A stretch of DNA of 64,000 bases from Nesterenkonia ebinurensis (GTDB lineage: Bacteria; Actinomycetota; Actinomycetes; Actinomycetales; Micrococcaceae). Numbering within the stretch: position 1 is the first letter of the stretch; every line of letters begins with the position of its first letter. Shown here piece after piece: positions 18,673-35,176 of this stretch. The notes below the pieces were generated by a model. The model was not told where the DNA came from and did not search any database. It was given only the letters and a program-made list of their open reading frames with translations. The translations under genes were made by a program, and so were the position numbers. The stretch spans positions 1 through 64,000 of the forward strand of contig NZ_VWNF01000032.1 of the NCBI RefSeq assembly GCF_008711175.1, given 5' to 3'.

Positions 18673-18740
18673 CGAGTGCATGATTTGTGCAGCAGTTTGG
18701 GCTCAGAAAGACCAGAAGTACTGCACAAATCATGCACTCG
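18673..18740. repeat. 20-bp perfect inverted repeat around a 28-nt loop
   Basis: CGAGTGCATGATTTGTGCAG (18673-18692) is exactly complementary to 18721-18740. The loop (18693-18720) has no clear structure. The arms are AT-richer than the surroundings. It lies 68 bp before the HAD phosphatase. It could be a terminator-like hairpin, the footprint of a small mobile element, or a regulator site; none can be chosen from sequence alone. Confidence 0.75.
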
Positions 18741-32605: not shown

Positions 32606-35176
32606 ATGAGTACGACGACGCCACCCACCCCCTCCATACCCCAGAGTCCGGCAGAGGGCCGCACCGCCCCCGCCGGGGTCCGGGTCACCGCTGCTGGGTT
32701 CACCTATCAGCACGCCGACCGGGAGCGCCCCGCCCTGGCAGATCTCGACCTGGAGATCGAACCGGGTGAGAAGGTGCTGCTGGCCGGGGCCTCCGGGGCG
32801 GGCAAGTCCACCCTGCTGCACGCGATGGCCGGGGTGCTGCATGAAGATGGTGACCGATTGAGTCGAGAGGAGACTGCTGCCAGCAGCGGATCTTCTGCGG
32901 CGGTTGAGGGAACGAGCGGCCGAAAGGCCGCGAACGCTGAGGCCCTGAACCAGCTGCTGCTGGACGGGGTCTCCCCCGCGGAGGCCCGCGGCCGGGCCGG
33001 CCTGATGCAGCAGGACCCGGAGTCCCAGGTGGTGCTGGCCCGTATCGGCGATGATGTGGCCTTCTCCTGTGAGAACCTGGCCGTACCCCGGGATGAGATT
33101 CCTGGCCGGGTTTCGGCCGCACTGGCCGCAGTGGGTCTGGACTACCTGCCGCTGGATCATCCCACTGCTGAGCTCTCCGGGGGGCAGAAGCAGCGCCTGG
33201 CCCTGGCCGGGATCCTGGCCATGCAACCGGGCCTGCTGCTGCTTGATGAGCCCACCGCTAATCTGGATCCGGAGGGCACCGTACAGGTCCGCGACTCGGT
33301 TGTCGCTGCGGCCCAGGCCACCGATGCCACCCTGGTGGTGGTGGAGCATCGACTGACCACCTGGGTGGACCATGTAGATACTCTGGTGGTTCTTGAGCCC
33401 GGCGGCGGGGTCCGGCACCGGGTGCCCGCGCAGCGCATTCACGACGACACCGCCCTCCGTGAGGAGCTCGATGCCTCAGGATTGTGGCTCCCCCACCGCG
33501 AGGCAGGAGCGAGGCGAACTGCCGAGCCCTCAAGCTCGCGCCCCACCAGGAAGCAAGGTTCTCCGCTCCTGACAGCCAGTGAGCTGGCGGTGCATCGCAA
33601 GTCCCCCAGGAAGTCCTGGCGCAAAGGCCCACCGGTGCAGCCGGTGCTCTCCGGGGTGGATATCAGCCTGGCGCCCGGTGCTGCGCTGGGCATCACCGGG
33701 CGCAACGGGGCTGGGAAGTCCACGTTGATGCTGACCCTGGCTGGGCTGCTGGCCCCGCACGGCGGGGAACTCATTGCTGGTCCCGCGCTGAAGGGTGACC
33801 GAGGCGCCGAGCTGCCGGACTCGCCCTACCAGTGGCGCTCCGCAGACCTGACCTCCCGCATCGGTACGGTGTTTCAGGAGCCGGAGCACCAGTTCGTGCG
33901 CAATACGGTGGCCGATGAGCTGCGGCTCTCCGCGGAGCAGGCTAAGATCCCCGGCACCCGGGATTCGCTGTTCACCGAGGATGAGGTGGCCCAGCGGGTT
34001 GACCGTCTGCTGGGCCGGCTACGGCTCACCCACCTGGCGCAGGCCAATCCTTTCACCCTCTCCGGCGGGGAGAAGCGCCGGCTCTCGGTGGGCACCGCAT
34101 TGGCCGCCGGACCCGAGGTGCTGATGCTGGATGAGCCGACCTTCGGGCAGGATGCGCATACCTTCGCCGAGCTGGTCAGCCTGCTGCGCGAGCATCTTGA
34201 GGCTGGCGGCACGGTTCTGGCGGTCACCCATGATGCCGACTTTCTGCACGCGCTGGACGCCGAATGCTACGACCTCTCCCCTGATCCCTCGCCACCCATC
34301 TCCTCCGACTCCAGCGCCCCTACCAACCCAGATGTCAGGGGCTTATCGGAAAATCAGGCACTTATAAGTACCGGACAATCCGATAACACCCTGATAAAAC
34401 GTGAGGACAGCACACCTCTGCTCTCCGCTATCCGGGATACCTCCTGGCTGGGGCGCCGCGGACCGCTGGGCAAGCTGATCGCCCTGCTGTTCATCACCTT
34501 GGCACTGATCGCCACCATTGACCCGGTCTCTGCCGCCGTGGTGGCGGTGGCCTGCTTCGCGCTGCTGCCGGTGGCCAATATCCGGCTGGTGACGTTCCTG
34601 AAGCGGATTTGGATCTTCGCCGCGGCCTCCCTGATGGCGGTCTGGGGTGCGGCGATCGCTGCCGAGGAGTCCGGTCGAGTGTTGGTAGACCTGGGAGTGA
34701 CCACCATCTCCACCGGTTCTCTGGAGATGGGTCTGTCCTTGGGGGCGCGTGCTTTTGCGATCGTGCTGCCCAGTGTACTGATCTTCTCCACCACCGATCC
34801 CACTGACCTGGCCGACTCCCTGGCCCAGCAGCTCAGGCTGCCTGCCCGGTTTGTGCTCGGCGCCCTGGCCGCGATGCGTCTGCTGGGGCTGATGGCTGAG
34901 CACTGGACCACTCTGGGACATGCCCGCCGGGCCCGCGGGCTGGGCAGTCAGTTCCTCTCCCAGGCCTTCGGACTGCTGGTGCAGGCCATCCGGATGGCCA
35001 CCCGGTTGGCAGTGACCATGGAGTCCCGCGGCTTCGGAGCAGGTGAGCGCAGCTGGGCGCGCCGGGCCAGCTTCACCCGGGCCGACGGCGTCGTCGTCCT
35101 AGCCGGGTTCCTCATCGCCGCCGCAGCGACAGCCCTTGCCGTAGCTGCCGGGACCTGGAACCTAGTTTGGGCCTAA
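32606..35176 (+). CDS. Fused ECF transporter: two ATPases plus T-component (YkoD-YkoC fusion)
   Basis: An 856-residue fusion. ATPase 1 (about 22-290): Walker A ASGAGKST, signature ELSGGQKQRLA, Walker B LLLLDEPTANLD. ATPase 2 (about 325-560): GRNGAGKST, TLSGGEKRRLS, VLMLDEPTFG. The CbiQ-type T-component (about 615-856) has membrane helices and a HARRARG coupling motif. In Bacillus ykoD and ykoC are separate genes. Two stretches look inserted: about 35 Ser/Ala/Arg-rich residues after HAMAGVLHEDGD (81-117), and a linker before the T-component encoded by palindromic element P. With YkoE it would import thiamin precursor. Its 3' end overlaps the convergent nitrilase-like gene by 15 bp. Confidence 0.88.
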   Translation: MSTTTPPTPSIPQSPAEGRTAPAGVRVTAAGFTYQHADRERPALADLDLEIEPGEKVLLAGASGAGKSTLLHAMAGVLHEDGDRLSREETAASSGSSAAVEGTSGRKAANAEALNQLLLDGVSPAEARGRAGLMQQDPESQVVLARIGDDVAFSCENLAVPRDEIPGRVSAALAAVGLDYLPLDHPTAELSGGQKQRLALAGILAMQPGLLLLDEPTANLDPEGTVQVRDSVVAAAQATDATLVVVEHRLTTWVDHVDTLVVLEPGGGVRHRVPAQRIHDDTALREELDASGLWLPHREAGARRTAEPSSSRPTRKQGSPLLTASELAVHRKSPRKSWRKGPPVQPVLSGVDISLAPGAALGITGRNGAGKSTLMLTLAGLLAPHGGELIAGPALKGDRGAELPDSPYQWRSADLTSRIGTVFQEPEHQFVRNTVADELRLSAEQAKIPGTRDSLFTEDEVAQRVDRLLGRLRLTHLAQANPFTLSGGEKRRLSVGTALAAGPEVLMLDEPTFGQDAHTFAELVSLLREHLEAGGTVLAVTHDADFLHALDAECYDLSPDPSPPISSDSSAPTNPDVRGLSENQALISTGQSDNTLIKREDSTPLLSAIRDTSWLGRRGPLGKLIALLFITLALIATIDPVSAAVVAVACFALLPVANIRLVTFLKRIWIFAAASLMAVWGAAIAAEESGRVLVDLGVTTISTGSLEMGLSLGARAFAIVLPSVLIFSTTDPTDLADSLAQQLRLPARFVLGALAAMRLLGLMAEHWTTLGHARRARGLGSQFLSQAFGLLVQAIRMATRLAVTMESRGFGAGERSWARRASFTRADGVVVLAGFLIAAAATALAVAAGTWNLVWA
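34336..34408. repeat. Palindromic interspersed element P, copy 2, inside a coding region
   Basis: CAGGGGCTTATCGGA (34336-34350) pairs with TCCGATAACACCCTG (34379-34393), leaving only a GC/TG internal mismatch, and the tail is ATAAAACGTGAGGA. It shares the core AATCA-GC-CTTATA and tail with the element at 969-1036. Translated in frame it gives part of the hydrophilic linker (RGLSENQALISTG ... DNTLIKRED) between the second ATPase and the membrane domain. Its AT content is well above that of the flanking gene. Confidence 0.7.

Follow-up and report, generated by a model that had tools for sequence, protein, structure and literature searches.

The 64,000-nucleotide stretch analyzed here (the window: positions 1 to 64,000 of contig NZ_VWNF01000032.1 of the actinobacterium Nesterenkonia ebinurensis) carries two copies of a 60-bp palindrome, located by covariance model and alignment at 968–1027 and at 34335–34394 with no strand assigned. 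Comparison with 30 genomes of the genus and with more distant relatives associates palindromes of this kind with a gene for a putative nuclease. We consider it likely that the palindromes are both the recognition sites and the ends of a mobile element built around this one gene.

A nuclease-like gene bounded by palindromes

Nine loci contain two palindromes spaced 0.9–3.5 kb apart, of which five enclose a gene of ∼370 codons and a sixth adjoins one. An alignment of six of the encoded proteins (two from loci in G000 and one each from G003, G006, G013, and G017) recovers relatives in 28 of 30 genomes, and the seven best matches all have such palindromes nearby; as six of these defined the query, the seventh alone is independent. 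This seventh gene is split over contig ends, with its head at the end of contig C8 and its tail, including the stop codon, identified by the protein-alignment match at positions 151–333 of the window on the plus strand. The reading frame is interrupted at the contig end, and the head and tail are not joined. A degenerate palindrome, found by pattern only, precedes the head, and the tail is situated ∼640 bases ahead of the palindrome at 968, in the same order as at the G013 locus. The palindrome at 968–1027 is therefore probably, on this arrangement, the right-hand partner of the nuclease gene. The original prediction, made from the sequence of the window, had correctly grouped the palindromes as a family but had overlooked this linked gene tail. 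A further reading frame, apparently frameshifted, occupies the minus strand at 448–967 between the tail and the palindrome and is presumably histidine-phosphatase-like.

Structure comparison divides the protein into an AbiEi-like DNA-binding part, composed of a winged helix and a nucleotidyltransferase-like domain, and a C-terminal nuclease-like domain whose closest folds, as identified by a second structure aligner, are the homing endonuclease I-Bth0305I and Vsr. Residues Glu261, Asp292, Glu303, Asp305, and Lys309, candidates for the catalytic EDxHD residues, are invariant in an alignment of 34 members, all 34 of which are also matched by the AbiEi models in a database of defence systems. The linked gene probably encodes a DNA-cutting enzyme.

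Many members of the gene family, with one palindrome per side, sit between palindromes of quite different sequence. A first palindrome detector overlooked many loci, and the two flanks of each gene were aligned against each other instead. Within the genus, 40 of 70 loci score at least 20, as compared to 23 of 700 mismatched flank pairs, a set to which orthologous loci contribute some pairs. A wider scan yielded at least 568 relatives, and 80 of these, including genes from Arthrobacter, Cryobacterium, Rhodococcus, and Geodermatophilus, were analyzed in the same manner; seven loci were dropped for short flanks, leaving 73. The flank score reaches at least 20 in 59 and at least 30 in 45 of these 73 loci, while the corresponding counts in control windows are 17 and 8 of 63 upstream and 17 and 0 of 72 downstream. 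The first type of detector, applied to the wider scan, gave 31 of 80 versus 9 of 640 at a score of at least 18.

Palindromes of unrelated sequence follow a common plan in which the outer word recurs 19 bp further inward in the same arm. This repeat is observed with a z score of 19.1 among 64 Nesterenkonia palindromes and of 8.7 among 22 from other genera (22 of the 31 palindrome-pair loci, one copy each), and persists after removal of similar sequences (n = 26, z = 12.1, with none of 500 shuffles as high). Neighboring spacings also score, namely 18 bp in Nesterenkonia (z = 4.7) and 20 bp in the other genera (z = 3.8). A palindrome, which measures about 56–76 bp across families, thus tends to hold one word four times, as direct repeats that are mirrored. 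Such a four-word plan would suit a two-fold symmetric protein that makes two contacts per arm.

The palindrome also changes with the protein. When locus pairs are ranked by the relative score of their proteins, the palindromes are alike in 12 of 12 pairs at 0.6 or above and in 10 of 12 between 0.45 and 0.6, but in 0 of 34 between 0.35 and 0.45 and in ∼2% of pairs below that. The overall correlation is modest (Spearman 0.216), as the score does not separate dissimilar proteins from one another, and none of 2000 permutations reaches the observed value. Three of 38 loci were left out of this comparison (L123 and L129, which have no picked frame, and L102, which has a short palindrome). Nuclease genes with differing palindromes also occupy loci that are orthologous within the genus, both at L106, L108–L111, L113, L268, L281, and L283 and at L107, L114–L116, L131, and L132; these look as if the locus had been kept and the specificity switched.

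The sequence family of the window palindromes

A 27-base pattern built from both window copies matches twice in the window against a mean of 0.00 in 100 shuffles; as this pattern was derived from the two copies themselves, the whole genome provides the independent test. There, an inner-arm pattern locates 10 palindromes and its reversed control none, and a covariance model of 14 copies finds 20 places at E ≤ 1 in the 3.74-Mb genome, six of them outside the training set (weakest E 0.003). The model scored 150 of 605 first-look candidates, so 20 copies may be a lower bound. The same model finds matches in 9 of the 30 genomes of the genus. The original prediction had proposed a dispersed palindromic family in an actinobacterium and a covariance-model search to find it; both of its elements are present and further copies are indeed found, with the extents given for the two (969–1036 and 34336–34408) corrected to the conserved 60-bp unit.

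The family layout reads TCAGG, three bases, TTRTYGGA, three bases, TCNGCANN, TCATGA, and then the mirror image. Both window copies belong to a sub-type with TATA at the center, the copy at 968 with TCATG ends and that at 34335 with TCAGG ends, while CATG occupies the center in most of the 14 aligned copies; the predicted AATCA-GC-CTTATA core is accordingly a mark of the sub-type and not of the family. A fixed AA-TGAGGA tail does not survive as a defining part, as TGAGGA lies within 20 bases of only 4 of 19 checked copies and at differing distances, although a subset may share it. The complementary change of the outer arms (TCATG/CATGA vs TCAGG/CCTGA), noted in the original prediction, is real but occurs in 1 of 14 sequences. 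Covariation over the 14 copies is weak: the score is 0.185, where shuffles give 0.146 and 10 of 500 reach the observed level, and 78.1% of arm pairs are formed, where shuffles give 75.7% and 23 of 500 do so. The 3-bp spacers between the conserved words pair poorly, and recognition as DNA therefore fits better than an RNA structure, a reading that was rejected for the weak covariation and for the lack of Rfam matches in 15 loci. Runs of A or T are found at the ends of many R1 copies.

The window contains a second, unrelated palindrome, GAGTGCATGATTTGTGCAGC...ACTGCACAAATCATGCACTC, at ∼18675–18738, which is also present in the same genome at C1:28225–28296, C33:246328–246399, C49:24530–24601, and elsewhere (L012, L017). 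The sequence AAATCA(C/T)GCACTCA is read in 17 of 81 pattern-match rows.

Dispersal and presence/absence between species

The association between gene and dispersed copies was also seen for one further family, that with the half-site TGTCACGTCC. Among the 30 genomes, this half-site has 23 matches in G021, 15 in G007, and none elsewhere, which correspond to ∼11 and ∼8 palindromes; in each genome, two of these belong to the gene locus (L104 and L105). Of the 30 genomes, those with palindromes of this family are thus the same two in which a gene bounded by a TGTCACGTCC palindrome was seen. The unit spans 64 bp, and no conserved sequence was seen beyond it in 15 copies. At L365 (G007:C19:133950), two TGTCACGTCC palindromes, the first with a degenerate second arm, lie 7 bp apart, so palindromes can stand in tandem.

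Eight relatives were searched for the flanks of 10 palindromes that stand without the gene (solos) in the N. ebinurensis genome. In the detailed alignments, which cover four sites, the palindrome is present in some species and absent in others, and the inserts lie in spacers between conserved genes, as judged by eye and with one of the four sites viewed in part. The site at C2:29238, for example, is empty in G027, G025, G017, and G006 and holds palindromes of other sequence in G013 and G020. The more closely related G021 and G007 share four solo sites, with flanks 89.6–94.1% identical where aligned, and at one of these (L352/L375) the two arms show concerted differences. For three copies of G021 (L362, L380, and L382), the corresponding position in G007 lacks an equivalent. 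A further site in G006 and G017 proved to be shared.

For complete elements, flanks of eight were sought in the 30 genomes. The L118 element is absent from G000, in which the flanks lie 122 bp apart, and that of L140 from G003 (95 bp apart). A gene remnant lies beside the right flank of L145 in G010, and an orthologous gene is present at the L133 site in G001; for the remaining elements, one flank or none was recovered. In front of a protease-like gene, which we take to be tricorn-protease-like, G000 and G003 carry a solo, G006 and G017 a palindrome-gene-palindrome arrangement, and G027 a gene remnant, in a comparison that is not clean, as the neighbors on the other side differ too. The neighboring gene before the protease-like gene switches at the palindrome (L085 near 5116; L077, L078, and L258–L262), being one gene, presumably trpG-like, in G000 and G003 and another in G006, G017, G013, and G027; the palindrome here may mark the end of a rearrangement. 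At L383 (G021:C116, 3207–6645), a 3.4-kb segment between two palindromes, with an open reading frame that we take to encode a TauE/SafE-like membrane protein, is absent from G007 (L384, C20). Palindromes may carry cargo or act as deletion ends.

A phage-borne origin was considered and rejected: 30 pattern matches in viral contigs include no relative, and phages gave no match. Among plasmids, four records have matches, each below 60% identity.

The copy inside an ECF transporter gene

The second window palindrome, a solo, lies in frame within a gene at 32606–35176 on the plus strand, identified by homologue matches as an ECF transporter fusion of two ATPase parts and a T-component (names as in the original prediction), where it forms part of the linker. 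Only one of the six frames of this palindrome lacks a stop codon, and it is the frame in which the gene reads it. The fusion gene is matched in all 30 genomes of the genus, and the linker, which could be placed in 27, ranges from 49 to 90 residues in length; it measures 82 residues in N. ebinurensis and 57 in G003, the closest orthologue at 83% identity. A DNA alignment of eight genomes shows no palindrome in the linker of G003, G006, G017, G027, and G009, and palindromes of different sequence at the same spot in G020 and G013. The in-frame insertion that had been predicted is thus real, though within a variable linker: five of seven relatives have empty linkers, while the other two hold other palindromes, and the linker varies too much for the exact insertion ends to be mapped. 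A reading of the family chiefly as a Rickettsia-type element defined by insertion into genes is not supported, given the intergenic position of the solos at the four aligned sites and the linked nuclease gene.

A model for spread and its alternatives

These observations suggest a model in which a dimer of the nuclease would bind one palindrome, with one subunit per arm, and cut at the palindrome or nearby. Repair would then copy either the palindrome alone, giving a solo, or the gene with its palindromes, giving a full element, into another site. Spread could occur by insertion at new sites, by homing into existing palindromes, or by both, and the copy in the ECF linker would be a solo whose insertion, by chance, left the reading frame open. 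The presence of different palindromes per species at one slot, and of genes with different palindromes at one locus, fits either repeated arrival or the rewriting of old copies after a change of word. We give roughly even chances to the broader proposal that actinobacteria widely carry a selfish element of a new class, in which a nuclease spreads its own ∼60-bp target and, as its specificity shifts, the word is rewritten at all four positions, in flanking copies and solos, such that the same slot comes to hold different palindromes in each species.

Several observations count against the model. Three of the nine paired-palindrome loci (L080, L082, and L083) hold other genes in between, and flank similarity at a score of at least 20 is missing from 30 of 70 loci in the genus and from 14 of 73 in the wider scan. 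Many nuclease genes occupy orthologous positions in the genomes of the genus and are thus often inherited in place. Plain Foldseek gave no match at E ≤ 0.001, so that the second aligner is the source of the fold assignment; a profile search of Protein Data Bank sequences was likewise without a match. The junctions at L362, L380, and L382 are messy: extra DNA surrounds the palindrome, and at one site the relative has ∼3.1 kb of different DNA. Gains and losses are therefore indistinguishable, and no clean target duplication was seen at these three sites that lack the palindrome in the close relative. A search for target duplication beyond the two gene-flanking palindromes gave nothing firm among 37 loci, of which only L101, L108, L118, L130, L145, and L283 agree in at least 8 of 12 bases on one side. 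Binding, cutting, and movement are all inferred.

The best surviving alternative, which we nonetheless regard as unlikely, is that the palindromes are control sites, either operators through which the AbiEi-like protein represses its own gene or two-way terminators at gene ends, and that solos, being terminators or surplus operators, were not moved by the protein. The accessible text of one study describes AbiEi of Streptococcus suis binding palindromic sequences in its own promoter (PMC11062541), and the A/T runs that end many R1 copies, together with the copy at C5:69893, which by eye lies between converging gene ends, would suit terminators. Control sites do not account for a palindrome on both sides of the gene instead of just in front, or for variable presence at conserved sites; no Rfam family was matched in the 15 loci, and the TGTCACGTCC copies have no T runs, for which a terminator-only reading was rejected.

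Somewhat less probable again is that the protein polices DNA, in defence or against competitors, and that the palindromes mark or protect self or disarm the nuclease, their spread being a by-product of recombination. The match of every member to defence-database AbiEi models is consistent with such a role, as is the frequent retention of gene loci in place across the genus while the palindromes differ. However, the first six loci inspected showed no evident toxin or methyltransferase partner, though their neighbors were not systematically scanned, and no AbiEii toxin gene was noticed among the open reading frames of the palindrome-pair loci, of which only one, at L080, was profile-scanned. Moreover, policing alone does not explain dispersed solos at varying sites.

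That an unrelated transposase moves the palindromes with the nuclease gene as a passenger, by analogy to the short palindromic repeats linked elsewhere to transposases in the portions available of two reports (PMC3116915, PMC3733652), is very improbable, as the same gene family lies between sequence-unrelated palindromes in many genera, gene and palindrome change together, and the genome has no match to the Y1 (HUH) transposase family PF01797 in a search that was positive in 5 of 14 control genomes, other transposase families not having been searched.

Comparison with known systems

A gene bounded by its own palindromes recalls the repetitive extragenic palindromic (REP/REPIN) sequences and their associated tyrosine transposases (RAYTs; together, REPtrons), in which, as far as the accessible text describes, one enzyme gene is flanked by palindromes of a family that is also scattered and is specific to that enzyme (PMC3733652, PMC3116915). 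The same layout is found here with another enzyme, an AbiEi part fused to a Vsr-like nuclease in place of a Y1 transposase, and the lack of a Y1 match led us to reject a RAYT assignment. REP palindromes are described in the available part of the source as 20–40 bp with a GTAG or CGTC tag at one end (PMC3733652), unlike the 60-bp palindromes with TCAGG/CCTGA ends described here and the other families of at least 56 bp with the 19-bp word plan.

The C-terminal domain is likened to the EDxHD homing endonucleases by its fold, for which I-Bth0305I is the best match. Rfam models, those of introns included, gave no match at the gathering threshold in the 15 loci; free-standing homing genes also exist. 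I-Bth0305I is dimeric and its target approaches 60 bp in length, according to the part of the report available (PMC3943268), and the proteins described here differ from that group in the AbiEi-like front part and in the palindromes on both sides. The palindromic elements of Rickettsia resemble the ECF linker copy, the one in-gene case established, in lying in frame within a gene. Those elements measure 100–150 bp in the accessible text (PMC3767692), and the 60-bp, actinobacterial palindromes with a linked nuclease gene differ from them and from the Wolbachia elements. The AbiE type IV toxin-antitoxin systems share the AbiEi-type antitoxin fold of the front part, and binding of palindromic sequences by AbiEi is reported in the available section of PMC11062541; the fused nuclease-like domain and the palindromes on both sides and elsewhere are distinct.

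In the open-access literature, no paper was found that connects dispersed palindromes with DUF559 or AbiEi, which, given that scope, is weak evidence. Because a defining test failed for each known family compared, we regard the element as new in kind, though a case could be argued for a variation on the REP/RAYT plan.

Implications

The palindrome-flanked genes for the putative nuclease, many of them in actinobacteria, point to an undescribed kind of selfish element. To our knowledge, proteins named as AbiEi antitoxins or DUF559 have no known role. If the model is correct, it would provide a function for this family and an explanation for a class of repeats, and would mean that the REP/RAYT plan had arisen a second time, independently and around another enzyme. 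The family would also offer many natural pairs of protein and target in which the sequence next to the gene reveals the recognized word, so that the rules by which DNA is recognized, and the way new specificities arise, could be tested directly.
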